32,441 nt of DNA, from positions 1-32,441 of the forward strand of contig JAGCGS010000049.1 of NCBI GenBank assembly GCA_017649485.1, read 5' to 3'. The notes beneath the pieces were generated by a model, which was not told the DNA's origin, did no database searches, and worked only from the letters and a program-made list of their open reading frames with translations. The position numbers and the translations under genes were made by a program. This document shows, piece by piece, positions 650 through 21,415 of this stretch (the first letter of the stretch is position 1; the number at the start of each line of letters is the position of its first letter). The stretch is from Bacteroidaceae bacterium. GTDB taxonomy: Bacteria > Bacteroidota > Bacteroidia > Bacteroidales > Bacteroidaceae.

Positions 650-2275
650 TTACCCTGTATATGTCATGCCGAGTCTTTCAACAAAAGCCTTCTCTCTTTG
701 GCTAATAATAGACAGTCTATTTTTCAGGAACACCTTCACATCCGATTCATTCATTACGAGAGAATAGTGCTCAGGCAGGAAGAACGACTTTCTCAGCATT
801 TCGTCTTCTAACACCTGCTGTGGCAATTCATTGTATCCCCATTTCAATTTTTTCTCCAAGCCGGAAAGTGGTACAATGTTTGCAGGTGTATTATCTTCCT
901 GCAAAACTATCTTTTTTAGGTTCAACCCGCCTGTATGTGGCGCGGCTCCCGTCACTTCCCTATAGTAGCGCAACTCAAACAACAACAAAGATTTGCAACG
1001 CACTGACGCCAGCGATATTCTGTCAGGCATGGCAAGCGTTGAAAACTTCTGCCTGACCTCATCCATGAATATCATACTATCACTCTTCCCGTCTAGATAA
1101 TCCACAAACTGTGCAAAAGCCTTTCTCTGACTTGATAGCGAATAAATTGTGAAATAATTAGAATAACTTGTTGTCCAAAACCATTCTTTCAGGGCAGCAA
1201 TTTGTTCCTTCGTAGGATTACTGAGTTTCTTAAAAAAAGTCATCAAGAATATCAGCTGGGTGTTATACGGCAACAACTTATTATCTATCACATTCAATTC
1301 GTTATATAGAAATCTTACAGCCCTTTCTACATGAGGGGTGGTTTTTTTAACCACCTCCACAAAATCATTTCTCCTAGCCAACTTCTCGATATTCGATTGG
1401 TCTATATACATTTTATCATCAAAAGCACTCTGGTAGCATCTGAACAATGCCGTACGAGAAATACCCTCAAAATGATAACGGTTCAGGCGCATTTTTAAGT
1501 TGTCAATCTCTATGGCAAAGCTAAAATCATCGTTATAGGCCAATGTATTTACCATCCAGTCGGGTGATATTTCCGTTCCTTTCGTGTTGATGCGCGAAAA
1601 AATATCAACAGCATCATCCAATCCGGCATTGGTCACCTCAATCACTGCCATCTTATATTCCACCAGACTTCGCGAGAAAGAATCAGCTCTGTCCAGATAT
1701 ATTTCGAGTTTCTCTTCTTTTACATGGGGTTCTAGCTTCTTACGCGAATAACGCCTAAAATCCATTGTGCTCATCAGTATATATACCGGCACCTGCCATG
1801 GACGAGGTTCACGTCCTCCCATATACACAAACGATTCATCGTCAAGGTCGTAGTATAAATCAATAGTCTCGCTTCGCTGCTTGACATCATAGCTCAGCCC
1901 TGACTTTTCGGGGTTCGTCAGACACCCAAAAAGCGACGATAGCCTTTGGTAGCCATCCAATACATAGATTTGCTGCCCATGGCTATCTGGCAAAGTGTAG
2001 CTGCCTATGCACTTACCTTGCCAGTCTTTCTGCTCAAGAGGCTTCCACAGCAGTATAGAACCAATTGGATAATCGTTCTTGATACTATCAAACAGCCTCG
2101 GTCCCATGCTGAGCTTCTCAACCAAAATAAAATCTCCCGGCATCATTTCAGGCACCATAGAATTGGTTGGCACCTTAAATGACACCAAGAGAAATACTTG
2201 CAGCAGATGATACCCCACCACTGCCAGGCATCCATAGAACACTAAGTTCACCAGTATGTTGAGGAGTTTCTTCAA
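650..2275 (-). CDS. Chimeric ORF: signal peptidase I N-half fused to DUF262 (GmrS-like) protein
   Basis: 541 residues that join two unrelated parts. Residues 1-63 are the start of a Bacteroidetes-type signal peptidase I (S26): a membrane segment (about 9-33), then VPTNSMVPEMMPGDFILVEK with the catalytic Ser39. From about residue 64 the text is DUF262: SIKNDYPIGSILLW, then DGYQRLSSL (D107; usual form DGQQRLTTL, the presumed NTP-binding motif), then FSRINTKGTEIS near 230 and a long helical C-terminus. The peptidase catalytic Lys and the DUF262 opening motif (YQR..Y.W type) are both missing, so each half looks truncated at the junction near 2084-2090. No C-terminal DUF1524 HNH motif is visible. 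The start is TTG, 9 bp after the upstream propeller stop and in its frame; the nearby ATG (2278-2280) is out of frame and stops at once. It is the last gene of the NVEALA operon. Either half may be non-functional; an assembly error is possible but the frame is clean. Confidence 0.75.
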   Translation of the reverse strand: MKKLLNILVNLVFYGCLAVVGYHLLQVFLLVSFKVPTNSMVPEMMPGDFILVEKLSMGPRLFDSIKNDYPIGSILLWKPLEQKDWQGKCIGSYTLPDSHGQQIYVLDGYQRLSSLFGCLTNPEKSGLSYDVKQRSETIDLYYDLDDESFVYMGGREPRPWQVPVYILMSTMDFRRYSRKKLEPHVKEEKLEIYLDRADSFSRSLVEYKMAVIEVTNAGLDDAVDIFSRINTKGTEISPDWMVNTLAYNDDFSFAIEIDNLKMRLNRYHFEGISRTALFRCYQSAFDDKMYIDQSNIEKLARRNDFVEVVKKTTPHVERAVRFLYNELNVIDNKLLPYNTQLIFLMTFFKKLSNPTKEQIAALKEWFWTTSYSNYFTIYSLSSQRKAFAQFVDYLDGKSDSMIFMDEVRQKFSTLAMPDRISLASVRCKSLLLFELRYYREVTGAAPHTGGLNLKKIVLQEDNTPANIVPLSGLEKKLKWGYNELPQQVLEDEMLRKSFFLPEHYSLVMNESDVKVFLKNRLSIISQREKAFVERLGMTYTG

Positions 2276-2284
2276 TTCATCGCC

Positions 2285-3298
2285 TCAGTCTAATATCCCC
2301 TTCAAATCTAAATAGCCGAATTGAAAATCATCCTGGAAAGAGAAATACAGGCGGTCATTATCTTCATCCACACTCATACGCCAGATTTTATAACCGATGT
2401 CGAGTGTTTTTATATAATTGCCTTCCAAGTCAAAGACATGACAGATTGTAGGCATGCTACCAGTTTGCCGGTCTTTCCCGTCATAAGCTGCTATAATCCA
2501 ATCTTTGTAGATAACTACACTAAGGAAATGTTGTTTATTGTCACCGCTCTCTTCCCATTCCGGCCCATATATCCGGGCTTTCAGATCGAGTTGACCATCG
2601 AAAATGTTTATCAAGTCGAATCTGTTGCTACACTCCACTATCAAATCATGTTCGTTTGAATAATCATATACGACAACATTCTCAGATGTAGCCGGATGTT
2701 CAGAATGATGCAATTGAACACCACCTGTCAGCATATTCCACTTCCCTATTTTCATCTCATTTGACCTATACCTATTAGGTATAATAAAAGAGCCATAACA
2801 TAAAGTGTCATTTAAGAAATGATACTCATAAGTAAAAACATCATCACGTAATTTCTGCTTTACAGTTGGCAAATAATGTGGATTCATCTTGACGCTGTCA
2901 ACATTAAAGCTGTAAATATTCTTGCTCCCATAATCTACAACTTGTAAGCAATCATTTTCCATGTCGTATGTTATTGCTGCGATAGATGCTATCTCACCGG
3001 GACCTTGACCCAAGTCACCTGTACTGGCAATATATGACAAGGTGTTTTTTTCGAATATATGTACCAATTTCTCAGAGGATTTCAGGTCAGGAATTACAAC
3101 ATAATCTCCTAAGACTTTGATATAGGAAAAGTCGCTTATTAAGACGCTATCCGGTTCAAAATATTTGATGTTATCCTTGACTATAACAACATTATCCCGG
3201 CTTTTCTGCGTCTTATCAATACTGTTTCCGTTTCGGCAACTTAATGCCAAAACAGAAACAGCAAACAATAATAGGATTGGATATTGGCTTTTAATCAT
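2285..3298 (-). CDS. 6-bladed beta-propeller lipoprotein (BF3164-like), copy 2
   Basis: 337 residues with a lipoprotein signal peptide (MIKSQYPILLLFAVSVLALSC, Cys near residue 21), then repeated WD/NHL-like strands. The segment SYIASTGDLGQGPGEI (about 90-105) is the hallmark of the 6-bladed propeller lipoproteins of Bacteroidetes (BF3164 family). It is clearly a paralog of the neighbour at 3537-4535: both carry GDLGQGPGEI, an IYSF..DS.K segment, and end in FQF.YLDLKGIL. The start overlaps the upstream NVEALA gene by 8 bp, which suggests translational coupling. Role unknown; outer-membrane or periplasmic attachment is inferred from the lipobox. Confident on family, not on function. Confidence 0.85.
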   Translation of the reverse strand: MIKSQYPILLLFAVSVLALSCRNGNSIDKTQKSRDNVVIVKDNIKYFEPDSVLISDFSYIKVLGDYVVIPDLKSSEKLVHIFEKNTLSYIASTGDLGQGPGEIASIAAITYDMENDCLQVVDYGSKNIYSFNVDSVKMNPHYLPTVKQKLRDDVFTYEYHFLNDTLCYGSFIIPNRYRSNEMKIGKWNMLTGGVQLHHSEHPATSENVVVYDYSNEHDLIVECSNRFDLINIFDGQLDLKARIYGPEWEESGDNKQHFLSVVIYKDWIIAAYDGKDRQTGSMPTICHVFDLEGNYIKTLDIGYKIWRMSVDEDNDRLYFSFQDDFQFGYLDLKGILD

Positions 3299-3524
3299 CC
3301 GGTTCTATTAATTTCGCGGTCTTACCCCATGTGAATTCACCTGGACAATCACAATAAACTCCGCCTTTTTCACACGTACAAGACGGTGGAAGTGCCTGTC
3401 CCAACGCCTCCACATTTGCCTGAGCAAGTTCACTCATGTTCACTTTGCTCTCATTAGAGCCTGTCATCATGTAGCCAGCTGCGATGGCAGCTACGAGGGC
3501 TACGCTCATAATTACTCTCTTCAT
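3291..3524 (-). CDS. NVEALA-family small leader-type peptide, copy 1
   Basis: 77 residues from the ATG at 3524 (an ATG at 3536 would add MITN). The start at 3524 is preferred because MKRVIMSVALVAAIAAGY then matches the start of the paralog at 4555-4785. The N-terminus is hydrophobic and signal-like. The motif AQANVEAL (N37-L41) is the family signature of the NVEALA proteins (Pfam family of that name), small Bacteroidetes peptides of unknown function. After the motif comes a short core with four cysteines in two CxC pairs (C49, C51, C58, C60), GGVYCDC and an acidic end. It sits between two propeller genes, directly after one stop and overlapping the next start by 8 bp. Processing and export of the core peptide is an inference. 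Confidence 0.85.
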   Translation of the reverse strand: MKRVIMSVALVAAIAAGYMMTGSNESKVNMSELAQANVEALGQALPPSCTCEKGGVYCDCPGEFTWGKTAKLIEPDD

Positions 3525-3536
3525 ATTCGTTATCAT

Positions 3537-4535
3537 TTAGTTTAAAATGCCTTTCAAATCCAAATAGGCAAACTGAAACTCTTCGTCTAGTGACAAGAAC
3601 AACCTTTCATTATCTTCATCTGCACTCATAAAATGAATTTTGCAACCAGTCTCCAATGTCTTTACATAATCCCCATTCATTTTAAAAACAAGAAGCTTGG
3701 TAGGTAACATGTAGTCACGATAACTACTACCTGAATATGCGGAAATGATATATCCATTACATATTACAGTTGGAAAGAAATTAAGCTTCTGATCATCCCC
3801 GTCATCCCAATCAGGACCATACACATTGTGCTTAAGGTTAAAACTACTATCGAAGATACTGATCAGATCTGCTCTTCCATGAGCTTCTACAAACAGATTA
3901 TGCTTTTTCGAATAAGCATAATTTGTTTGATAGTTCTTAACATCAGGTTGAATGTAATCCATAAGTTTCACCTCGTTTGTTTTCATGTTCCACTTACCAC
4001 TAACGCGCCTGGTCGTTTTATTATCAATATACTGAACATACGTCGCAAAGCATAATGTATCAGACACATAAGTCAAATAAGTAGGTATCATCTCAGGCTG
4101 CATATGATACTTGATATAGGGCATGTAATCTTTGTCCCTTTTAAGGCTATCAATGTCAAAACTGTATATACATAAATGACCGAGGTCAGATACATAAAGT
4201 TTATCTTTCTTGTCATTCTGCATCACTTGCCCTAAACTAATGATCTCTCCTGGTCCTTGCCCAAGGTCTCCTATACTTGCTACATAAGATAAAGTATTCT
4301 TATCAAACAAATGAATCATCTTTTGGGATGATGAATAATCACTGAATTCTAGAAAATCATCCAGGACATAAATACGTGTTCCTCGTCCCATCAGAATATC
4401 ATCACCGAAATCGAGTTTTTCTAACTTCACATTAACAACATTGTCTCGTCTGGTTTGATAAACATCAGTCTGTTTATCATCGCAGGAAAATAAAATGAAC
4501 AATAGACATGTATATAAGATGAAACGAATATCCAT
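3537..4535 (-). CDS. 6-bladed beta-propeller lipoprotein (BF3164-like), copy 1
   Basis: 332 residues. The signal peptide MDIRFILYTCLLFILFSC ends in a lipobox Cys at 18. The residues just after it (CDDKQTD) are acidic and resemble the lipoprotein export signal that sends Bacteroidetes lipoproteins to the cell surface. SYVASIGDLGQGPGEI (about 88-103) and the C-terminal FQFAYLDLKGILN mark it as a BF3164-type propeller and as the paralog of 2285-3298. The gene starts 19 bp after the NVEALA gene at 4555-4785, so each propeller follows one NVEALA peptide. A surface receptor, binding or scaffolding role is plausible but unproven. Confidence 0.85.
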   Translation of the reverse strand: MDIRFILYTCLLFILFSCDDKQTDVYQTRRDNVVNVKLEKLDFGDDILMGRGTRIYVLDDFLEFSDYSSSQKMIHLFDKNTLSYVASIGDLGQGPGEIISLGQVMQNDKKDKLYVSDLGHLCIYSFDIDSLKRDKDYMPYIKYHMQPEMIPTYLTYVSDTLCFATYVQYIDNKTTRRVSGKWNMKTNEVKLMDYIQPDVKNYQTNYAYSKKHNLFVEAHGRADLISIFDSSFNLKHNVYGPDWDDGDDQKLNFFPTVICNGYIISAYSGSSYRDYMLPTKLLVFKMNGDYVKTLETGCKIHFMSADEDNERLFLSLDEEFQFAYLDLKGILN

Positions 4536-4554
4536 AATTCAACGAATTAAAATG

Positions 4555-4785
4555 TTATTGATCTATCTCGACAGATTTTTTTGACTCAAAAGTAATGTAA
4601 CCATCGGTACAATGCCAACCAAAGTCAACACAATCAATATAATTGAGGTCATCAGCCAAAGCCTCCACATTAGCCTGGGTCAAATCATTAACACTCACAT
4701 CGCTCTTGTCAGAGCCAATCATACTATAGCCAGCTGCAATCGCGATTGCTGAAATGAGGGCTACGCTCATAAAAAACTTCTTCAT
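4555..4785 (-). CDS. NVEALA-family small leader-type peptide, copy 2
   Basis: 76 residues: MKKFFMSVALISAIAIAAGY is a hydrophobic leader, then LTQANVEALAD carries the NVEAL signature (N39-L43), followed by a short core with only two cysteines (C52, C59) and an acidic end (SVEIDQ). Leader and motif closely match the copy at 3291-3524 while the cores differ. That is the pattern of leader-directed peptides with variable products. It lies 31 bp downstream of the truncated TPR gene and 19 bp upstream of a propeller gene, and has no promoter of its own that I can see, so it probably depends on the promoter at 5168-5199. Confidence 0.85.
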   Translation of the reverse strand: MKKFFMSVALISAIAIAAGYSMIGSDKSDVSVNDLTQANVEALADDLNYIDCVDFGWHCTDGYITFESKKSVEIDQ

Positions 4786-4816: not shown

Positions 4817-5152
4817 TTATTCTACTTTGCCACTGATTGTTATACGAAGTGGCGATTGTTTTGCATTACAATAAAGGATAAGCAGGATGATGCTATCTGT
4901 CAGCAGGGGCTTACTCAGCTTATCGGTTGCCTTGATCTTCTGAAGTTCAAACCTCATTTTTGCACTTTGGCTTTTATTTGACATTTCGCTATCAAGTTTA
5001 CTCACTATCTCGAACGCTTGTTGGTAATTCTTCTCAGCCAACAGGCTATCAATTTTGTCAAGTGACTCCAGGTCATCGCCCCAATGCATACCCTGACACC
5101 CTGCCCAGCAGAGCATCAAACCCAACAGCAATATGTGAACTATCCGTTTCAC
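4817..5152 (-). pseudogene. Truncated TPR-type lipoprotein regulator at head of NVEALA operon
   Basis: The frame is open from 5206 (GTG), but a promoter at 5168-5199 lies inside that extension, so the GTG at 5152 is the likely start. It gives KRIVHILLLGLMLCWAGC, a signal peptide with a lipobox Cys at residue 19. Residues 25-75 (DKIDSLLAEKNYQQAFEIVSKLDS) look like the first helices of a TPR array. The protein ends after 111 residues with an unrelated-looking tail. The intact relative next door (6749-8071, 440 residues) starts almost the same way, with Met/Val-x-x-x-VHI aligned residue by residue up to the Cys. So this is most likely a deleted or frameshifted remnant of a TPR/HTH regulator. It may still be transcribed and act as the operon leader. 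Confidence 0.6.
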
Positions 5153-5167
5153 CAGTTTGTCAACGGG

Positions 5168-5199
5168 CAAAGATATGAATGATTTTGGTAACAAGCAAA
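5168..5199 (-). promoter_or_regulatory. Promoter of the NVEALA/propeller operon
   Basis: On the minus strand TTTG (5196-5199), a 20-bp spacer, then TATCTTTG (5168-5175): a full match to the Bacteroides consensus TTTG-N19-21-TAnnTTTG. Transcription would begin near 5161-5164, about ten bases before the GTG at 5152. The genes from 5152 to 650 are tightly packed on this strand with no terminator seen, so this is the probable operon promoter. Confidence 0.75.
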
Positions 5200-5423
5200 T
5201 CTGCACAACATAAATATGGAAGAAAAATGTTGTTCATATGTGAATTGTATATCCACGTGATGACAGAGTAATTGTTATGCTTACTCAAATGTTTCTACTT
5301 CCCCGAGGCACCTATTTGTCCGTGAGAAGACAAAAAAGTGGTTTCGCGGACGATTAGTGGCATAAAAATTTGGTTAACTCGCTAAACATCATTACCATAC
5401 ATCTGAAACAATAAAAACAGATG

Positions 5424-6638
5424 TTATTTCATCATTTCCCTGATGGCATCCCTGATTTCCTGGTCAGTGGTACCCTCGCCAAAGCCAAAGAAGGATTTGC
5501 GGACGAAGTGGCTTCTGTCAAGCAGGAAAATCCAAGGGGCAGAGCCTTCTGTCTTGTAAGTGTCCAACATTTCCTCTGTAGCTCGAATGAAAGGATAGGT
5601 CAGCCCTTTCTTCTCGGCATAGAACTTCATCGTGGAATCTTTGGCTCCCCACGACTCAAAGGTGATAATGAGCAAATCATCCTCGTTATACTCTTCTCTT
5701 AATTGTTTGAGAAAAGGCACAACCGCTTGGCAGGGAGCACAAGCCGTTGCAGAAAACTCGAGCAAGATAACCTTTGCATGTAAGTCTTTCAAAGAAACTG
5801 TATTGCCTTCCAAATCTGTGAGAGTCCACATAGGAGCAGGCTTATTCAACAAACTATTGGCATCATTCACAGAACGTTGTTTCACTTTGTATGGCCTCAC
5901 GAGATAGTCTTGTGGAAGATAGTCATTTATGTCAAAATCGGATGGGTTTTCTGCATTGAGAACAGGATTATGGCAAGTTTCATCACCGATATCATGCTCT
6001 TGCGTTCGTCTAAGACGATAGGGCAAGTTGGTTTGTTTACTGAACCATATTTCATACTCAGAAGTTGGGTCAACGATATAACCTCCTCCATCAATGTGAG
6101 TGGCTTTACCTCCAGTAAACTCAATCTGTTCATTTTCATGGGTAATCATGTGGAATTTATAGTAGTCCAAAGAATCGACCAAAGTATATTCAATGCTATC
6201 ATGCGTGGTAAGTGCATAGTCGATGACATGATAGGCATAGCGGAAGAAAGGAGGCCACACCAACCTGAAAGGCAAGTTTCTTGCCGTAAAGTCATCCCTG
6301 ATGATGCCTTTGTGTTCGTGATAAATAGTGTATTTCGCCTCGCCATCATAGACCCCCTCGACAAGGGTACTGTCATCTTCCGAATAGCGAACGAAATTGG
6401 TTCCTACTGTGGTGTCAGCTGAATTCTTATACTCCTTATATTTTATGAACCAATGAGCTCTTAGATTGGGATCACCTGGACTAAAACCCAACTTTTCATT
6501 TGTATAGCTTGCCGTTTGAATCTGGTCAAGCCTCTCTCGCATCTGACGCAAATAGGCGTCACTATCTACTTGTCTGCTTGTGCAGGCGTTCATCAGAATG
6601 GCTATCAATGCCATCATGTAATAAAACATCTTTTTCAT
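5424..6638 (-). CDS. TlpA-like thioredoxin-fold lipoprotein
   Basis: 404 residues. The signal peptide MKKMFYYMMALIAILMNAC ends in a lipobox Cys19. Residues 30-255 are a Bacteroidetes-type N-terminal region rich in beta strands. Residues 263-404 are an AhpC/TSA-TlpA thioredoxin domain: LNKPAPMWTLTDLEGNTVSL, then the redox pair CAPC (300-303) and the cis-Pro in SAPWIFLLD (P368). It should act as a thiol-disulfide oxidoreductase outside the cytoplasm. Genes of this type often sit with TPR regulators, NVEALA peptides and propellers in Bacteroidales. The NVEALA cores contain cysteines, so redox handling of those peptides is a possible, unproven role. A near-consensus -7 box (TTACTTTG, 6662-6669) precedes the gene. 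Confidence 0.85.
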   Translation of the reverse strand: MKKMFYYMMALIAILMNACTSRQVDSDAYLRQMRERLDQIQTASYTNEKLGFSPGDPNLRAHWFIKYKEYKNSADTTVGTNFVRYSEDDSTLVEGVYDGEAKYTIYHEHKGIIRDDFTARNLPFRLVWPPFFRYAYHVIDYALTTHDSIEYTLVDSLDYYKFHMITHENEQIEFTGGKATHIDGGGYIVDPTSEYEIWFSKQTNLPYRLRRTQEHDIGDETCHNPVLNAENPSDFDINDYLPQDYLVRPYKVKQRSVNDANSLLNKPAPMWTLTDLEGNTVSLKDLHAKVILLEFSATACAPCQAVVPFLKQLREEYNEDDLLIITFESWGAKDSTMKFYAEKKGLTYPFIRATEEMLDTYKTEGSAPWIFLLDRSHFVRKSFFGFGEGTTDQEIRDAIREMMK

Positions 6639-6748: not shown

Positions 6749-8071
6749 TTATAAGCTCATGATGACTTTATCCCAATCTTCGGCTTTTCCGTCTTTGCCA
6801 AGCACTTTCTTATACAAACGTGCTCTGGTATTGGCAATGGCACTATCGGTCCGACTAACCAAACTGGCAATGCGAGAGGGCTTGAACCCCATTTTGAGCA
6901 AGAGGCATACCTTCAAATCTTGTTCTTTCTCTACCCCCATCTTCTGCAAACTGGAGAGGAAAGTGGGATAAACTTGGTTAAGTAGGGCTATCACCTCTTG
7001 TTGCTCTACCTCGTTCATGGCTTTCTCTGTGGCAAGTAATTGCTGGTAGATTTCTGAGTCGCGAATGGTCATCGTAGTGGTATGCTCTAACTGAATGCGT
7101 TTATTGATTATACGATAGATAATAATCACTGTTATTGCTACCACCAATACCAAAAGCAGAATGGCGATGATGGCATAGTACTTAATCAGCTGATTACGAG
7201 CCTGCAGCTCGGCATTCTGACGCTCCATGTTCAAGGCCTGATACATCGTACTAACAGCTGACGTTGTCTCGGCAACCTGCTCTTTAGACATAGCGCTTTG
7301 CAACCTTTTATTATTCCTATACAACTGATAAAAAGCGTGATCACCAACATTGCGAAGAGCTTGTCCTATTTGCCAATCGATGACATAGTTTTGATAATAG
7401 CTATCTTGGGATTCTAACAGCTTCTGCATATAATAATCAGCAGAATCCTTATCCTCACGATCAGTAAAGTTATAGATATGCCACATCACATAGTTATAGA
7501 TGTCCTTATCCTCAGGTTCAACATGATAAGGAGGCTTAGGCAAAAGTTCAACGGCTAAATTCATCCTTCCACCTTCCATAAAAGCAGTGGCCAAGCGAAG
7601 TGCCAAAGAGATGCGAGGCTTTTCTTGATTGGCTTGGATGGCCAACTGCTCTGCGAGGTCATAGTAATGAACAGATTCGCCCAAATCAATTTGCTTGCGA
7701 TACATATCACCCAAGCACTTGTAAGCTGAAATCATATTAAAGGTGTCTTTCAGACTTTCAGCACATCCGTATGCTAATTGGTATCTCCCAATGGCCTCTT
7801 TGTAAAGCATTTGCCCGGCAAACAGTTCACCCATACTTGTGTATATCTTGACCTTGCGAGCCAAGAAAGCAGTATCATTGCCAGTCATAACATCAATGGC
7901 TCGCTGATAGTAGAGCAATGATTGCATCGCAGGTTCCTCCCCCACGCTATCATTTGCGACCTGACACAAACTATCAGCCAAAGCCAATGCCTCCTCTACC
8001 CTCATTTGTCTGTTACAAGAGGTGAGGCAAAGCAGCAAAACCGCCAATACAATATGAACCATTTGTCTCAT
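6749..8071 (-). CDS. Membrane TPR regulator with C-terminal HTH-like domain
   Basis: 440 residues from the ATG at 8071. In-frame starts at 8104 (ATG) and 8122 (GTG) would place extra residues before the signal peptide, and a TAnnTTTG box at 8078-8085 lies within that extension. MRQMVHIVLAVLLLCLTSC is a lipoprotein-like signal (Cys19). Residues about 30-250 are helical TPR-like repeats; a single membrane segment lies at 299-321. A coiled coil follows, then a C-terminal domain (about 388-440: LLLKMGFKPSRIASLVSRTDSAIANTRARLYKK) that resembles the HTH end of Bacteroidetes TPR regulators. The layout, a periplasmic sensor joined through one helix to a cytoplasmic DNA-binding domain, suggests it senses a signal and controls the neighbouring NVEALA/TlpA genes. 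Confidence 0.8.
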   Translation of the reverse strand: MRQMVHIVLAVLLLCLTSCNRQMRVEEALALADSLCQVANDSVGEEPAMQSLLYYQRAIDVMTGNDTAFLARKVKIYTSMGELFAGQMLYKEAIGRYQLAYGCAESLKDTFNMISAYKCLGDMYRKQIDLGESVHYYDLAEQLAIQANQEKPRISLALRLATAFMEGGRMNLAVELLPKPPYHVEPEDKDIYNYVMWHIYNFTDREDKDSADYYMQKLLESQDSYYQNYVIDWQIGQALRNVGDHAFYQLYRNNKRLQSAMSKEQVAETTSAVSTMYQALNMERQNAELQARNQLIKYYAIIAILLLVLVVAITVIIIYRIINKRIQLEHTTTMTIRDSEIYQQLLATEKAMNEVEQQEVIALLNQVYPTFLSSLQKMGVEKEQDLKVCLLLKMGFKPSRIASLVSRTDSAIANTRARLYKKVLGKDGKAEDWDKVIMSL

Positions 8072-8077
8072 AGTGGG

Positions 8078-8085
8078 CAAAAATA
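8078..8085 (-). promoter_or_regulatory. -7 box of the TPR regulator gene
   Basis: TATTTTTG on the minus strand matches TAnnTTTG. It is followed by CCC just as in the box at 5168-5175, so the two TPR-type genes share promoter ancestry. No clear TTTG is found 19-21 bp upstream. The ATG at 8071 begins only 6 bases after the box, so the transcript would be leaderless, or translation may begin at the next ATG (8062). Confidence 0.5.
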
Positions 8086-8161
8086 CAAATTTCTCCCATT
8101 CCATCGAATAAAATGAGTTCACAAAAAGTTCACAACCCCACCTCTCAGTACTTTATATAAG

Positions 8162-8209: not shown

Positions 8210-9526
8210 TCATTCACCATAATAGCCAATGAAGAGAGGGCATTCCGTGTTGGTTTCCACAATAGCATAGAAGAACGGACGGTCGAGGACCATATAAATC
8301 GGTTCAGAAGGAACGGAAGTTACTTTGGCAAAAATATCAGTCACGGCTGCTGCCTCCACTTTCTCCTCATCCATCATGAAGTATGTTTTCTGTATGGCAT
8401 CCAGCAACATCTCTTCCTTATGGTTGAAGATGCTGATGTCATTCCAATTCAGCATCAAATCAGGATTGATGTCTTTCATGCGTCTGAAGAGTCCCTCAGC
8501 TGTGTATTCTGACTTGAATTTAGGAGCGAGCAGCATAACCCTCTCCATCTCAGGCTTTCCAGGATAATATTCTGCGGTAGCTGTTACCTTGAAGTCCAGG
8601 ACTGAAGGTATGGCATCTTCCAGCTTCACCCCCTCCTTAGGCAGGATGAACACCATCTGGAATGACCCGTCGATAAAGGGTTTCACGCATTGTTGATACA
8701 AGTCGGTCTCAGCGTATGAGGTCCTGATTTCCTGGCGCATCATATCCACATCAGCTGTTTTGCCGTTGGCATAGTGGAAAGGCTTCTTCTGGGTGAGCTC
8801 CTTGTCGAAAGGCTCTTCCCACAATGCCTTGAAATAAACGGCATTCATCAGGTGGAACAAATCTGTCCCATCTGTCTGGTCTATCATCTTGGGGATGAGG
8901 TTATTGGTATGCTCAGCACACCAGGCATTGATGGTGTCCTTCGTCGTGGGGTCGGTAAAATCCACTGCCTCTGTCTTGGCATCATAGCCTGTCTGGATAA
9001 CTGACAGGAAATCCTGATTGGCCGAACGGGTCTGATTGTACCAAAAGGAGTTGGCACTCTTGAATGTAGCTGCCTCGTCGGCATTCTCGATGCCTTTCAT
9101 CATGGTCTTGAAGTAGTCGTTGATTTGCGCCTTGCTGAAGCTTTCCAAACCCATTGTCTTCAGCATTTCCTGCAAACTCTCACCCTCCAATCCATTGATA
9201 AACATGCCTAAGTCTAATGTCAAGCTGATTGGGGAAACCATCAGGTTAGTGCCTGCATCACGATGGGTAAATACTTCCTTGAACAGTTTCCAGGAAAAGT
9301 CCTGCACCTTGTTATGGACTGCCCTTTGTGACTCAGCCAAGAGCACAGGCTTGTAGCTGTGACGGGTTTCGGGCTCTGCCGGCTTCGCATCCACAGGCTC
9401 CGCAGGTTTCAGCTCCTCCTTCTCAGGATCCACGCGCAACGGCTCCAACAATTCTTTGTCTTTATCTCCACAGCTGCTCAGACTCAAGGCGAACAGCACA
9501 CTTAAAAGGATACTTTTTGTCTTCAT
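8210..9526 (-). CDS. Serpin-family lipoprotein
   Basis: 438 residues. The signal peptide has lipobox LSLSSC (Cys19), followed by an acidic stretch (GDKDKE) that fits surface export, and a Pro/Glu/Lys linker to about 55. The rest is a full-length serpin: FSWKLFKEV near 77, NPLM-type SPISL near 100, NAVYFKALWEEPF mid-protein, and the C-terminal DRPFFYAIVETNTECPLFIGYYG signature. The reactive-loop hinge EEKVEAAAVTD (387-397) keeps the small-residue run typical of inhibitory serpins, although P15 is Lys rather than Gly. Counting from it, P1-P1' would be Thr403-Ser404. It probably inhibits serine (or cysteine) proteases at the cell surface, for example host or competitor enzymes in the gut. Single gene with its own terminator. 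Confidence 0.92.
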   Translation of the reverse strand: MKTKSILLSVLFALSLSSCGDKDKELLEPLRVDPEKEELKPAEPVDAKPAEPETRHSYKPVLLAESQRAVHNKVQDFSWKLFKEVFTHRDAGTNLMVSPISLTLDLGMFINGLEGESLQEMLKTMGLESFSKAQINDYFKTMMKGIENADEAATFKSANSFWYNQTRSANQDFLSVIQTGYDAKTEAVDFTDPTTKDTINAWCAEHTNNLIPKMIDQTDGTDLFHLMNAVYFKALWEEPFDKELTQKKPFHYANGKTADVDMMRQEIRTSYAETDLYQQCVKPFIDGSFQMVFILPKEGVKLEDAIPSVLDFKVTATAEYYPGKPEMERVMLLAPKFKSEYTAEGLFRRMKDINPDLMLNWNDISIFNHKEEMLLDAIQKTYFMMDEEKVEAAAVTDIFAKVTSVPSEPIYMVLDRPFFYAIVETNTECPLFIGYYGE

Positions 9527-16599: not shown

Positions 16600-18117
16600 T
16601 TACTTAATCAAGTCGTTGCCTGTCATCTCAGCTGGCTGAGGCATACCCATGATGTGCAGGATAGAAGGAGCCACATCGGCCAGCACGCCATTCTCTACCT
16701 TAGCATCTTTGTTAGCGGTAACATAGACGAAAGGTACAGGGTTGAGCGAGTGAGCTGTATTAGGTGTACCATCTTCGTTGAGAGCGTGGTCGGCATTACC
16801 ATGGTCGGCGATGATAATCACCTCATAGTCGTTAGCCTTGGCAGCCTCAACGGTTTCCTTCACACAATTGTCGATAGCTACAACAGCCTTCTCAATAGCA
16901 GGATAGATACCGGTATGACCCACCATGTCACCATTCGCATAGTTCACCACGATGAAATCATACTGCTGAGTATTGATAGCCTCCACCAACTTGTCCTTCA
17001 CCTCGTATGCACTCATCTCAGGTTTCAGGTCGTAAGTAGCTACCTTTGGAGAAGGCACCAGAATACGATCTTCGCCAGCGTAAGGAGCTTCACGTCCGCC
17101 GTTGAAGAAGAAAGTTACATGGGCATACTTCTCTGTCTCAGCAATGTGCAACTGCTTCTTGCCGTTGTTAGAGAGGTATTCACCCAACGTATTCTCCACA
17201 TTCTCCTTGTCGAACAGGATGTGAACGCCCTTGAAAGATGCATCATAAGGAGTCATGCAGTAATACTGCAGATTCTTGATGGTGTGCATGCCCTGCTCAG
17301 GCATATCCTGCTGAGTCAGTACGGTGGTAATCTCCTTAGCGCGGTCGTTGCGATAGTTGAAGAAGATGAATACATCGCCTTCCTTTACGCGACCATCAAC
17401 GGTGCTATTAACAATAGGCTTGATGAATTCGTCGGTAACGCCTTCGTCATAAGACTCCTGCATAGCACGTACCATATTGTCACTCTGCTTGCCTAAGCCA
17501 TGTACCAACTGATCGTAACCTACCTTTACACGTTCCCAACGCTTATCACGATCCATGGTGTAGAAGCGACCAATGATGGATGCCACCACACCAGCACTCT
17601 GCTTGCAATGAGCCTCAACCTCTTCAATGAAGCCCTTACCGCTACGAGGGTCAGTATCACGACCATCCATGAGGCAGTGAATGAAGGTACGACCTTCCAG
17701 ACCATATTCTTTAGCGATATCGCAAAGCTTGAACAGATGATCCATAGAACTGTGTACACCACCGTTGCTGGTCAAGCCCATGATGTGCAGACCTACGCCA
17801 TGCTCTTTGGCATAACTGTAAGCATTGATGATTTCCTTGTTCTTCAGGATGCTGCCATTTTTGCAGGCACGGTTAATCTTCACCAAGTCCTGATATACGA
17901 TACGTCCAGCACCGATATTCAAGTGACCCACCTCAGAGTTACCCATTTGCCCATCAGGCAGACCCACGTTCTCGCCAGAAGCCTGGAGCTGAGAATTAGG
18001 GTAGTTAGCAATCAAATAATCCCAATAAGGAGTTGGGGTACAGAAAATCACATCGTCTTTGTGACGATCTCCAATACCCCAACCATCCAAAATCATTAAT
18101 AACGCTTTCTTAGCCAT
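16600..18117 (-). CDS. gpmI: 2,3-bisphosphoglycerate-independent phosphoglycerate mutase
   Basis: 505 residues, normal length. It interconverts 3- and 2-phosphoglycerate in glycolysis with two Mn2+ ions and a phosphoserine intermediate. ILDGWGIG (metal ligand Asp11), [15 protein letters not shown] (phosphorylated Ser61), [33 protein letters not shown] and [14 protein letters not shown], then [12 protein letters not shown] are all present, so the active site looks complete. Its ATG shares one base with the stop of the upstream TIM-barrel gene (TAATG), and the DUF3109 gene follows with no gap: an operon. Confidence 0.96.
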
Positions 18118-19118
18118 TACTTCACGAAGTCAGACATGTTCAAGAATTTTGCAGACTCTTCCAGACGGCCGAACTGCTTGCCACTATTGGTGTCTTCAAT
18201 CTCGATGAAGAAGTACTTGTTGCCATTTGCATAGAACTTATCGAAGATGTTCTTGAAGTTCATTGCACCAGAAGCACCCAGTACCATGAAGTCCTTAATA
18301 TGCAACATCTTGATGCGGTCAGCACGACGAGTCAGCCATTCCACAGGATCCTGCTGGCCCATTACAGTCCAGTAAACATCGAGCTCGAAGATAACGTTAG
18401 CAGGATTAGTGTTGTCCATATAGACATCTTCGATAATCTGTGCGCCCTGCATTCCCATACCAGAGAACAGGTCACCCAGAACGGCAGCCTTACTGTCAGC
18501 AGTAACCTTAGCCATCTCCATGTTGTGGTTGTGGTAACCGAACTGGATGCCACCAGCCTTAACAACCTCACCAGAGATGTTCAGCAGGTTAGCGAAGTCC
18601 TTAGCATCATCAATGCAGTTCACTGTACGAGGAGGCATCATTGGCTGTACCAGATACTCAACACCCAACTTAGCGTGGTCTTCTACTACCGGCTTCCAGA
18701 ACTCTCTCACGTCGTTAGCCATCTGCTTCAGGGTCTTTGGCTTCTGTGCAGGAGCACCAGGACGCTGGAACATACCACCCATCAAGACACCAGGAGTAAC
18801 GTGAGAACTAACAATCTTCAGGTCATTGTCATCAGCTGCCTTCTTGAAGTCAGCCAAAGAAACACCACTAATGTTATGCTGATCAGCATTGTAGCCAGCG
18901 AGCTCCAAGTTCTTGATGCCCATCTCACGGATGCGCTTAAAATTAGCTGACAAATCGCCCTGAGTCAGTTCCGGACCCAGTGTGTAAATCTGCAAACCTA
19001 AACCTTTGTTCTTGTTCTCAACTGGAGCAGCAGGAGTAGCCTCCTTAGTGTTACATGCTGCCAAAGCGCCTAATGACAGGAGAGAAGCGCTCTTTAAGAA
19101 ATCTCTTCTATTGATCAT
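18117..19118 (-). CDS. Tat-exported sugar phosphate isomerase/epimerase-like lipoprotein, paralog A
   Basis: 333 residues. [22 protein letters not shown] combines a twin-arginine signal (NRRDFLK) with a lipobox Cys22. The mature part is a xylose isomerase-like TIM barrel (AP_endonuc_2 family): [43 protein letters not shown] and FIEIED carry the Glu/His/Asp residues that bind the metal in this fold. It is expected to act on a sugar or inositol-like substrate in the periplasm; the true reaction is unknown. One of three neighbouring paralogs (with 19202 and 20384). Translationally coupled to gpmI through TAATG. Confidence 0.88.
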
Positions 19119-19158
19119 TTCAGTTTAATATTATTAATATGGTATATGAAAATTAGAA

Positions 19159-19183
19159 GGCACAGCTTTCGCAAAGCCGTGCC
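19159..19183 (-). terminator. Hairpin between paralogs B and A (weak terminator or attenuator)
   Basis: On the minus strand GGCACGGCTTT pairs with AAAGCTGTGCC (one G-U) around GCG, followed by TTCTAATTTTC, a poor U tract. I see no TAnnTTTG promoter between it and the next gene, so part of the transcription of paralog A and gpmI may pass through it. Confidence 0.6.
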
Positions 19184-19201
19184 TCCATGTTGATTGTCTA
19201 T

Positions 19202-20203
19202 TTATTTAACCCAAGGCTGAGCATTGATGAACTTCATTGAAGCCTCAACGCGCTGCATCTGCTTGCCGCTATCAATATCTTCAATCTCGCAGAACAGATA
19301 CTTATTGCCATTCTTATAGAACTGCTCGAAGATCTTCTGGAAGTTCATAGCACCAGAATCACCCAGTACCACAAAGTCCTTCACGTGCATCAACTTGATG
19401 CGGTCTGCACGCTTCTGCAACCAAACAACAGGATCCTGCTGACCCATTACAGTCCAGTAAGTATCCATCTCATAGATAACGTTTGAAGGATCAGTGTTGT
19501 CCATCAGCAGATCCATGATCATAGGACCATCAGCAGCTGTCAGCGGAGTCAATACGGTAGGCAGGCGGAAGCCCTTAACACCCTTGACCATGCGGGCAAA
19601 TTCCATATTGTGGTGGTGGTAACCGAACTTGATACCAGCAGCCTTGAATATCTCACCACTCTTATTCAGCATCTCAGCAAAAGCCTTTACATCGTCTTCG
19701 GTGTTCAGATAAGCCATCATTGGGTGAACAACATACTCGATACCCTGCTTAGCATGATCCTCAGCAACCTTCTTGAATGACTCAGCAACCTTGTTAATCA
19801 TAGAGCGGTTGAACTGACCATCGCTACCATCGCGGCTCTCGCGACCAGCTACGCCTGAGAACAATCCAGGAGCATTCACATGTGAACTTGGAATCTCCAA
19901 ACCAGCATCGTTAGCCATCTTCTTGAACTCAGTGAAATCAACGCCACCTACCTTATTGGTGTTTACATCGTAACCTGCCAGCTCAATGTACTTAAAGCCC
20001 ATGCCATTCAGGCGCTTGAAGTTGTCTGCCAGATTGCCAGCATACAACTCATTGCCCAGCGTGTAGATTTGCAAACCAAAATACTTGTCTGTTGAATTAG
20101 CCTCAACAGCTGGAGCAGCTGCTGTCTCCTTAGAATTGCAAGCAGCCAAAGCGCCCAAAGATAACAATGAAGCGCTCTTCAGAAAATCTCTTCTATTAAC
20201 CAT
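19202..20203 (-). CDS. Tat-exported sugar phosphate isomerase/epimerase-like lipoprotein, paralog B
   Basis: 333 residues from the ATG at 20203, chosen because [22 protein letters not shown] then matches paralog A almost exactly (Tat motif, lipobox Cys22). A start at 20251 would add 16 residues before the signal. Same TIM-barrel motifs: [61 protein letters not shown] near-consensus -7 box (TAACTTTA) lies about 30 bases upstream. Likely periplasmic or membrane-anchored epimerase/isomerase-like enzyme of unknown substrate. Confidence 0.88.
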   Translation of the reverse strand: MVNRRDFLKSASLLSLGALAACNSKETAAAPAVEANSTDKYFGLQIYTLGNELYAGNLADNFKRLNGMGFKYIELAGYDVNTNKVGGVDFTEFKKMANDAGLEIPSSHVNAPGLFSGVAGRESRDGSDGQFNRSMINKVAESFKKVAEDHAKQGIEYVVHPMMAYLNTEDDVKAFAEMLNKSGEIFKAAGIKFGYHHHNMEFARMVKGVKGFRLPTVLTPLTAADGPMIMDLLMDNTDPSNVIYEMDTYWTVMGQQDPVVWLQKRADRIKLMHVKDFVVLGDSGAMNFQKIFEQFYKNGNKYLFCEIEDIDSGKQMQRVEASMKFINAQPWVK

Positions 20204-20318
20204 AATTTTACTAATTTTAGTGTATTTGGCTGTAAAGTTAGGCTTTTTCAATGAGATATTAACAATTTACTGATTTAATTTTTCTAAAATACGTGCATTT
20301 TGTCTCATATAACGGCAT

Positions 20319-20352
20319 AAAAAGAGCAGAGCTGGCTTCACAGCCAGCTCTG
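20319..20352 (-). terminator. Strong rho-independent terminator after paralog C
   Basis: On the minus strand CAGAGCTGGCT and AGCCAGCTCTG form a perfect 11-bp stem around GTGA, followed by CTCTTTTT. It makes the gene at 20384-21415 a separate transcription unit. Confidence 0.9.
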
Positions 20353-20383
20353 TCTTATAATTTTAACCCAAATTTTCTTTTTA

Positions 20384-21415
20384 TTAAGACTTTACAAAGC
20401 CCTTACCAAGTAAGTACTTCGCACTTGCCTCAGCACGCTCTAACTGCTTGCCACTGTTAATATCCTCGATTTCTACGAACCAGTTGCGATGACCGTTTGC
20501 ATAGAAATTGCTGAAGATATTCTCAAAGTTCATAGCACCAGAAGCACCAATCACAATGAAGTCCTTAATGTGCAACAGTTGGATACGATCCTTATACTTG
20601 TTAATCCAAACAATAGGATCCTGCTGACCCATTACTGTCCAATAGCAGTCAAGCTCGAACAATACGTTCTGCTTATCAGTACCCTCGATGAATACTTCCT
20701 CAATCGTCTTAGGTTCTGGAGAGTTGTCACCAGGACGACGGAAGCCACGCTGATAGTAAGGAGTTACAGCCTCACCGCCAGGGATTACCTTGTTAAACTC
20801 GTTGCTGTGGTTGTGATAACCGAACTTGATGCCGTTCTGACGCAGCAACTCACCTACCTTATTGAAGATTTCAGCTACATTCTGAGCATCTTCCAGGTTG
20901 TTGATTGTAGGCAGACTTGGCTGAACAATGTACTCAACACCAAACATCTTGTGATCAGGAAGAATCTTCTTCCAGAAGTCCAAGATCTGAGTCTCAGTGC
21001 TCTTGTCATACTTAGCACCACGCTGCAGGTTAGGAGTCATGTGTGAGCTGACAATCTTGATACCAGCATCATCTGCCATCTTCTTGAAGTCAGCTGCAGA
21101 AGTAGGAGCACCACCACCGAAGCTTGAGAACTGGCCGTGACCCTTGCTGTCGTCAAAGCCGTAGAAAGCCAACTCAACCTGATCGAAACCATAGCTCTTC
21201 ATCTTCTTCAGTGCGTCAGCTGGATTATTCAGCAACTCACCACCGAGAGAGTAAGCCTGGAAACCAAGGTTAGAACCAGCCTTAGGAGCCTGTGCTGTAG
21301 CAGCAGAAATGCCGTCAACACCATTCATGCCATTAGCTGCACTCATTTTAGAAGCTGCCAATGCGCCCAGCGTCATGAAAGACGCGCTCTTAAGAAATTC
21401 TCTTCTGTTTGCCAT
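20384..21415 (-). CDS. Tat-exported sugar phosphate isomerase/epimerase-like protein, paralog C (no lipobox)
   Basis: 343 residues. MANRREFLKSASFMTLGALAAS has the twin-arginine motif, but the residue where paralogs A and B have the lipid-modified Cys is Ser22, so this copy is probably soluble in the periplasm. TIM-barrel motifs are kept: [49 protein letters not shown] and FVEIEDINSGKQ. It carries a short insertion around PGGEAVTPYYQRGFRR relative to A and B. It has its own promoter (21460-21490) and terminator. Confidence 0.88.
   Translation of the reverse strand: MANRREFLKSASFMTLGALAASKMSAANGMNGVDGISAATAQAPKAGSNLGFQAYSLGGELLNNPADALKKMKSYGFDQVELAFYGFDDSKGHGQFSSFGGGAPTSAADFKKMADDAGIKIVSSHMTPNLQRGAKYDKSTETQILDFWKKILPDHKMFGVEYIVQPSLPTINNLEDAQNVAEIFNKVGELLRQNGIKFGYHNHSNEFNKVIPGGEAVTPYYQRGFRRPGDNSPEPKTIEEVFIEGTDKQNVLFELDCYWTVMGQQDPIVWINKYKDRIQLLHIKDFIVIGASGAMNFENIFSNFYANGHRNWFVEIEDINSGKQLERAEASAKYLLGKGFVKS

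Follow-up and report, generated by a model that had tools for sequence, protein, structure and literature searches.

NVEALA peptide genes paired with beta-propeller lipoprotein genes in Bacteroidales: a conserved locus that suggests leader-guided export of disulfide-rich peptides

A four-gene peptide/propeller cassette

The window analysed here, a stretch of 32,441 nucleotides of contig JAGCGS010000049.1 from a Bacteroidaceae draft genome (GCA_017649485.1), carries a cassette in which genes for small NVEALA proteins (Pfam family PF14055) alternate with genes for beta-propeller lipoproteins (PF17170, DUF5128). On the minus strand the order is peptide 1, propeller 1, peptide 2, propeller 2 (Table 1), with intergenic gaps of 19, 0 and -8 bases. 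This alternation had been proposed by a model reading the DNA alone (hereafter the sequence-only reading) and is confirmed by the open reading frames (ORFs) and by Pfam. All four genes are members of their families by score, with 41.9 and 32.8 bits for peptides 1 and 2 (cut-off 27) and 23.4 and 32.7 bits for propellers 1 and 2 (cut-off 22.9); the family descriptions name no function. Peptide 1 begins with a hydrophobic segment, carries NVEALA at residues 39-44 and has two single cysteines in its core. In peptide 2 the site reads NVEALG, not NVEALA, and the core holds two CxC pairs (CTC and CDC). The two leaders are 71% identical in DNA across 131 bases and the cores are unlike each other, which bears out the likeness of leaders and difference of cores noted earlier.

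Propeller 1 is the presumed partner of peptide 1 and, in the same way, propeller 2 presumably that of peptide 2. An AlphaFold2 model of propeller 1, made from an alignment with 11 relatives, is mostly beta (mean predicted local distance difference test score 86.3, predicted template modelling score 0.84), and the top Foldseek matches to this model are propellers. The nearest solved Bacteroides folds are the DUF4221 protein BVU_1028 (3s9j; rank 1, TM 0.58) and the exported protein BF0058 (4raa; rank 4, TM 0.57), both propellers at 11% identity; the titles of the two entries mention neither a ligand nor a partner. 4raa also matches the propeller by sequence, with an expectation value (E) of 1.4e-5. 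The genome belongs to a genus group in which Bacteroides acidifaciens is included: one contig of a same-genus genome (G739) is exactly the reverse complement of a contig from strain DSM 15896. It holds nine NVEALA genes in three clusters. In locus L010 a degenerate NVEALA gene (7471-7722, minus strand), with NIRALA replacing NVEALA, adjoins a normal one of its cluster.

Conserved pairing across Bacteroidales

At the level of the family, 64 of 399 genomes have a PF14055 match (E 1e-4); the figures are 26 of 393 for the order (E 1e-3) and three of 385 for a phylum-wide sample, all three from the same order. From the listed matches, 80 loci from 56 Bacteroidales genomes were picked and mapped, the window included. 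Many of them end at contig borders, the counts given below are not independent (genomes are related and some contribute several loci), and the gene-family profiles were built from the same loci in which the families were then counted.

A propeller gene lies directly downstream of 158 of the 206 NVEALA genes; unlabelled genes have one there in 24 of 410 cases, propeller genes in 94 of 320 and DUF1573 genes in 13 of 78. This downstream-neighbour control rules out chance adjacency of peptide and propeller, and the one-to-one pairing of a shared leader and variable cores with propellers, which the sequence-only reading had proposed from two pairs, holds across the mapped loci. Conserved linkage in other genomes, on which that reading depended, was likewise found in the 80 loci and extends to S26 signal peptidases and CxxC lipoproteins. 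A lipobox pattern is present in 249 of 325 propellers versus 48 of 315 unlabelled proteins. None of the ORFs matched by the NVEALA profile in the 80 loci is a natural NVEALA-propeller fusion. In L032, L033, L047 and L078, propeller genes that lack an NVEALA partner form long runs beside NVEALA loci.

Leader, presumed cleavage site and cores

Among 195 motif-bearing peptides, NVEAL is followed by Ala in 189 and, in the remaining six, by Gly (four) or Ser (two). A set of 191 of 213 peptides was selected for matching four or more of motif letters one to five, so that only the sixth letter onward is unbiased. In this set the presumed site is preceded by L at -2 (98%) and A at -1 (97%), with Ala also at -3 (99%), and Glu occurs three residues past the site in 82%. 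Ala-x-Ala is the classical site of signal peptidase I. The cores have a median length of 37 residues, and 190 of the 191 contain cysteine, in even number in 145 and in odd number in 45. The pooled ratio of non-synonymous to synonymous substitution (dN/dS) is 0.37 for cores, 0.29 for leaders and 0.13 for propellers (62 pairs, with silent sites near saturation), which indicates that the cores are under purifying selection. Taken by their sequences, the NVEALA peptides look like processed export products; we infer both this processing and the binding by propellers.

Similar propellers carry similar cores

The matching of cores and propellers was assessed in 142 peptide-propeller units from 72 loci by shuffling cores within their own locus. 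Where propellers in different loci are alike, the mean core score is 0.336, compared with 0.079 for shuffled cores (standard deviation 0.022, maximum 0.171, 300 shuffles); leaders, used as a control in the same test, score 0.386 versus 0.391 when shuffled. Cores are thus alike where propellers are alike, to a degree that no within-locus shuffle reached. The signal persists when class A peptides, which share a CxGxG...C core (CxGxGSxDCP), are left out: cores then score 0.376 versus 0.128, a value reached by none of 1000 shuffles, and leaders 0.527 versus 0.499, reached by 15 of 1000, the leader excess being far smaller than that of the cores. Some cores are near-unchanged although their propellers are about 40-44% identical (BLAST). 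For peptide 1 of the window, the nearest core among the 142 units is that of L010:11404-11631, and the propeller of that unit is also the nearest to propeller 1.

A distinct S26 signal peptidase

The S26 signal peptidases linked to NVEALA loci are set apart from the near-universal enzyme, with E below 1e-80 versus roughly 1e-33 to 1e-43 in one search. Of the 58 genomes carrying this subfamily, 52 have NVEALA, compared with a base rate of 64 in 399; the E limits for this co-occurrence were set after the results were seen, and the S26 and regulator profiles (A1 and A2) derive from NVEALA-retrieved loci, some of them in genomes that were then searched. In 22 aligned linked S26 proteins S43, K118, G249, D250, S255, D257, S258 and R259 are invariant, and the linked S26 proteins of other loci have the catalytic Ser and Lys (that of L010 matches PF10502 with E 1.5e-26).

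Twenty loci were fetched by means of the S26 protein, 18 of them from genomes without a Pfam NVEALA match. Among these 18, 11 hold NVEALA-like peptides according to a custom profile, mostly with EALS or EALT. Ala occupies position -1 in 85 of 89 peptides, versus four of 16 in loci with a divergent S26, where Ser or Thr stands instead. This shift is suggestive, but nearly all such loci were drawn from genomes without a Pfam NVEALA match, a choice that itself favours odd motifs.

Accessory genes and regulators

Several other families recur in the 80 loci: a DUF1573 type in 56, a transglutaminase-like protein in 40, S26 in 39, a Wzy_C type in 36, an adaptor in 24, a resistance-nodulation-division (RND) pump in 20 and TolC in 10. 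Near S26 the recurring order is ligase-like protein, TolC, adaptor and RND pumps, and Wzy_C, OEP, HlyD and ACR_tran were confirmed by Pfam in scanned representatives. The label transglutaminase was rejected for the recurrent protein, for which the Pfam matches are weak and below the cut-off. A C..C motif is found in 66 of 79 DUF1573-type proteins, often in a GCxSCKLQ context, and the figures for propellers and for other proteins are 56 of 328 and 23 of 202; all four DUF1573-type proteins scanned match Pfam DUF1573. Coyne et al. (PMC6671954) state that Bacteroides lack a general disulfide machinery and regard the thiol oxidoreductase encoded in bacteroidetocin loci as the likely source of the bonds. 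As regards the dedicated modifying enzyme expected of ribosomally synthesised and post-translationally modified peptides (RiPPs), the protein with the sub-threshold transglutaminase matches and the Wzy_C protein recur. Glycosylation by the ligase-like protein is without support because the O-glycosylation motif D[ST][AILVMT] occurs in seven of 191 cores. A peptidase-containing ATP-binding cassette (ABC) transporter is not among the recurrent families inspected, the unlabelled genes having been scanned in part.

Class A peptides are tied to a regulator. A winged-helix gene lies immediately upstream, on either strand, of 32 of the 39 class A peptides versus 11 of 154 other NVEALA peptides; the class A pattern was picked on the same loci, and its p-value is descriptive. 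The winged-helix profile matches 44 of the 80 loci, response regulators among them. Winged-helix genes of 310-410 codons number 39 in 36 of the 80 loci, and 35 of these 39 adjoin an NVEALA gene. Of the 39, 37 encode a pair of hydrophobic helices located around residues 23 and 215, and both regulators scanned end in a PF00486 winged helix. Regulator carriers have NVEALA in 30 of 32 genomes at E below 1e-20 and in 31 of 38 at 1e-5.

Twenty regions fetched with the regulator profile show the other side of this association. In four of them NVEALA adjoins directly (L138, L139, L145 and L148) and in two it is one gene off (L141 and L146). Nine regions that cluster in the tree (L131-L135, L137, L140, L142 and L143) have no NVEALA, and the remaining five (L129, L130, L136, L144 and L147), some of which lie at a contig end, have no adjoining NVEALA. 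The cores of L139 and L145 match the class A pattern exactly and those of L138 and L148 roughly; at least L139 and L148 were already in the family-level list of NVEALA matches. In L137, L140, L142 and L143 the regulator stands beside an ORF that, by eye, resembles the end of an acetyltransferase.

A regulator with tetratricopeptide repeats (TPR) and a helix-turn-helix (HTH) part was rejected as the usual regulator, being present in 11 of the 80 loci. By sequence, these proteins have the TPR part first and an HTH-like part at the C-terminus, the latter unrecognised by Pfam; RRNPP sensors are cytoplasmic, with an N-terminal HTH followed by a TPR sensor.

Proposed mechanism and alternative explanations

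With moderate confidence, we favour a reading in which disulfide-rich peptides are cut from a shared leader by S26, oxidised and each bound by the neighbouring propeller. NVEALA proteins would be export precursors with one common leader, whose hydrophobic N-terminal segment would carry the precursor across the inner membrane and anchor it there. The dedicated S26 (type I) signal peptidase would cleave past the Ala-Leu-Ala of NVEALA and free a short Cys-rich core on the periplasmic side, where a CxxC/DUF1573 lipoprotein may form or isomerise the core disulfides. The freed core would be captured by the propeller lipoprotein encoded immediately downstream. The candidate exporter in intact loci is an RND/TolC pump encoded downstream, and the adjoining two-helix membrane winged-helix regulator may sense one conserved class of peptides.

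A number of observations weigh against this reading. Ala-Leu-Ala lies about 20 residues past the hydrophobic segment, which is farther than usual for signal peptidase I. Nine of the 64 NVEALA genomes are without the S26 subfamily at E below 1e-50 (12 of 64 at 1e-80), and of the 27 genomes whose S26 is more distant (1e-80 to 1e-50), three have a Pfam NVEALA match; seven of the 18 S26-fetched loci show no NVEALA-like peptide. Among the 317 propellers with a mapped preceding gene, an NVEALA gene directly precedes 158 and is absent before 159. The winged-helix family is ruled out as an exclusive NVEALA partner by the 20 regions fetched with its profile. A thioredoxin label for the DUF1573-type proteins was also rejected, the sole sign of it beyond the C..C motif, in the four scanned, being one sub-threshold AhpC-TSA match. 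As for the matching, joint inheritance of adjacent genes can by itself yield it. Leaders, too, beat nearly all shuffles once class A is left out, being reached by 1, 15 and 0 of 1000 shuffles at looser, middle and stricter propeller limits, and the polarity test on propeller-NVEALA-propeller triplets runs in the hoped-for direction (p 0.017) but is small, with 4 versus 50 informative pairs. Core 2 of the window is without a clear relative among the cores paired with its nearest propellers in the 142 units.

One possibility, which we regard as rather doubtful, is that the loci serve competition: the cores would be antibacterial peptides, the downstream propeller an immunity protein and class A the inducer, an arrangement like that of class II bacteriocin loci under pheromone control. 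A common leader with variable Cys cores, matched core-propeller pairs and a conserved peptide class tied to a regulator all suit this explanation, and the propellers without a peptide (159/317) resemble orphan immunity genes, but orphan receptors would give the same picture. The leader, moreover, ends in LA and not in GG. The bacteroidetocins of Bacteroidales offer a parallel, being also Cys-containing and accompanied by a thiol oxidoreductase gene, but their producers self-inhibit and the authors infer that there is no immunity protein (PMC6671954).

It is also conceivable, though not likely, that every core acts as a signal outside the cell or in the periplasm, with the propellers as receptors or carriers that pass it on to the membrane winged-helix regulator. 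The position of class A directly behind the winged-helix gene (32/39), the two helices of the regulators (37/39), purifying selection on the cores and the likeness of class A propellers between several loci, most of them from the window's own genus, are in line with such signalling, but most peptides are without a regulator of their own, and relatives of the regulator exist without NVEALA.

That the NVEALA protein instead remains anchored and assists the propeller as a small partner or chaperone, with no release, would explain the direct adjacency (gaps of 19, 0 and -8 bases) and the matched pairs. We consider it unlikely in view of the near-constant AxA site, the co-occurrence of NVEALA with a distinct S26 and the short Cys-rich tails, whose mostly even Cys counts resemble free disulfide peptides. 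Mere co-inheritance, in which pairs travel as units whose products never meet, is quite improbable: adjacency by itself can give matching, the polarity control is weak and a small pair signal is present in leaders too, but some cores stay alike where propellers have diverged to about 40-44% identity (BLAST), and the peptide-then-propeller order is kept across the mapped Bacteroidales loci.

Building on the favoured reading of cleavage by S26 and capture by the propeller, we tentatively suggest, as something still short of probable, a Gram-negative secreted-peptide system not described so far. In it, the regulator-linked peptide with the CxGxGSxDCP core, sensed by a two-helix membrane winged-helix receptor, would turn on variable disulfide peptides, each with a propeller as receptor or immunity protein, with the common NVEALA leader cut by the dedicated S26 and export through RND/TolC. 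Such a system would be a functional counterpart of Gram-positive pheromone-controlled bacteriocin loci made of unrelated parts.

Relation to known systems

Pheromone-regulated class II bacteriocin loci, such as blp of Streptococcus pneumoniae, combine a common leader, a regulator-linked peptide and variable peptides with partner genes, and shared processing and export. NVEALA loci resemble them in having one regulator-linked peptide and variable peptide-partner pairs under a common leader. Unlike blp-type loci, they have no GG leader, an S26 protein and not an ABC peptidase, propeller lipoproteins and not small membrane immunity proteins, and a one-component membrane regulator and not a kinase pair. 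Because leader end, peptidase, partner and regulator differ, we do not file NVEALA loci with the pheromone-controlled bacteriocin loci.

The bacteroidetocins (PMC6671954) share with NVEALA loci short exported multi-Cys peptides, a thiol oxidoreductase gene nearby and Bacteroidales hosts, and differ by a GG leader cut by a peptidase-containing ABC transporter and by the lack of an immunity protein found. The double-glycine leader end that characterises class II bacteriocins and bacteroidetocins is absent from NVEALA leaders; NVEALA loci have an AxA site, an S26 peptidase, an N-terminal hydrophobic segment and a propeller partner. A literature search that covered few subscription journals returned no description of NVEALA pairing, of the S26 link or of the regulator-linked class. 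The name NVEALA was not found in the same literature, BF3164 appeared in one 2007 phylogeny paper, and PF14055 as a literature term returned mostly Plasmodium and malaria titles, where it probably stands for gene numbers. A Bacteroidales RiPP survey (PMC10352776) makes no mention of propeller, signal peptidase or NVEALA. Functionless in Pfam, NVEALA proteins and their propellers yet form conserved multi-copy loci in gut bacteria. If the interpretation is true, these would be a gut system of peptide communication or competition in which cognate pairs can be read from the genome, together with a predicted cleavage site, protease and receptor.

A partly broken copy in the window

The features of the window locus are listed in Table 1. 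The sequence-only reading had taken it for a complete make-process-sense locus, which does not hold: two chimeric ORFs (650-2275 and 4817-5206) rule this out, S26 is a fragment, the TPR piece is fused to a DUF1573 tail, and the custom profiles matched no pump or ligase-like gene within the window. By its reading frames, the locus is most simply a remnant, a partly broken copy, with assembly error at the junctions being possible, as the genome is a draft of 69 contigs (82.61% complete).

Table 1. Cassette genes, remnants and adjoining intact genes in the window
Feature	Position	Strand	Basis or remark
NVEALA peptide precursor 1, 76 aa	4555..4785	minus	PF14055, E 8.3e-11
Propeller lipoprotein 1, 332 aa	3537..4535	minus	PF17170 barely above cut-off; AlphaFold2 model
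NVEALA peptide precursor 2, 81 aa	3291..3536	minus	PF14055, E 5.8e-8
Propeller lipoprotein 2, 337 aa	2285..3298	minus	PF17170 above cut-off; 8-base overlap with peptide 2
S26 signal peptidase, 5' remnant	2078..2275	minus	Ser motif (PTNSM) present; Lys and later motifs absent
GmrSD_N-type remainder, in frame with S26 remnant	650..2077	minus	PF03235, E 1.6e-15
TPR regulator remnant, N-terminal part	4874..5065	minus	34/64 residues identical to L011:11614-13203, residues 2-65
CxxC/DUF1573 lipoprotein remnant, last 21 codons	4817..4882	minus	16/21 residues identical to end of L011:10204-11163
TlpA-like thioredoxin lipoprotein, 404 aa, intact	5424..6638	minus	PF00578, PF08534
TPR/membrane/HTH-like regulator (by eye), intact	6749..8122	minus	Seed of TPR-regulator profile

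The linked peptidase piece noted earlier is real, but it is merely an S26 fragment of about 66 codons fused to GmrSD. It shares 60 of 66 residues with L010:5273-6163 of the same genome, and its DNA is 95.7-97.7% identical to three paralogues of the genome, the match stopping near 2087. At the protein level the match ends at residue 66, before the full type I signal peptidase set (Ser, Lys, later boxes) is complete. The other partner covers positions 30-190 of the 199 in the PF03235 profile, its first 29 positions being absent. ORF 650-2275 is thus one in-frame chimera of S26 and GmrSD_N (DUF262-type) with both partners cut at the junction, and it looks like a rearrangement scar, not a functional fusion. 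ORF 4817-5206 is a second in-frame chimera, joining an N-terminal stretch of a TPR regulator to the tail of a DUF1573 lipoprotein; of the relatives of the two parts, L011:11614-13203 has Pfam TPR matches and L011:10204-11163 is DUF1573 by Pfam.

The window copy would have kept two intact-looking pairs and lost its own peptidase and CxxC/DUF1573 gene, a loss that would leave it reliant on intact copies at other sites of the genome. Unbroken S26 frames are present on contigs C56 and C33. On contig C41 an S26 gene (L011 6415-7343, minus strand) is split into two ORFs, with a stop within the first half. A fuller relative, L171 from a sheep-rumen Bacteroidaceae genome, reads TPR regulator, small protein, DUF1573 protein, N P N S, two others, then N P S, adaptor, pump, TolC and pump (N, NVEALA; P, propeller; S, S26), and the order on C41 resembles it. 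The label DUF3244, given at first to the small protein that adjoins the TPR regulator, was rejected, its L011 relative having no Pfam match.

Two further genes named in the sequence-only reading are intact. The thioredoxin lipoprotein is a TlpA-like gene, but the recurrent linked type is the CxxC/DUF1573 protein, whose profile does not capture it. The TPR/HTH regulator was named by eye, and Pfam finds neither TPR nor HTH in it; as a class, TPR/HTH regulators occur in 11 of the 80 loci versus 36 of 80 for the two-helix winged-helix type. The DNA at the 3' end of the gene matches L011:11627-11788. Upstream of this regulator lies a serpin protease inhibitor gene (8210-9526, minus strand; Pfam E 2.3e-73), and farther along, at 18117-21415 on the minus strand, three similar tandem proteins have twin-arginine-like starts and are, by eye, sugar-isomerase-like.

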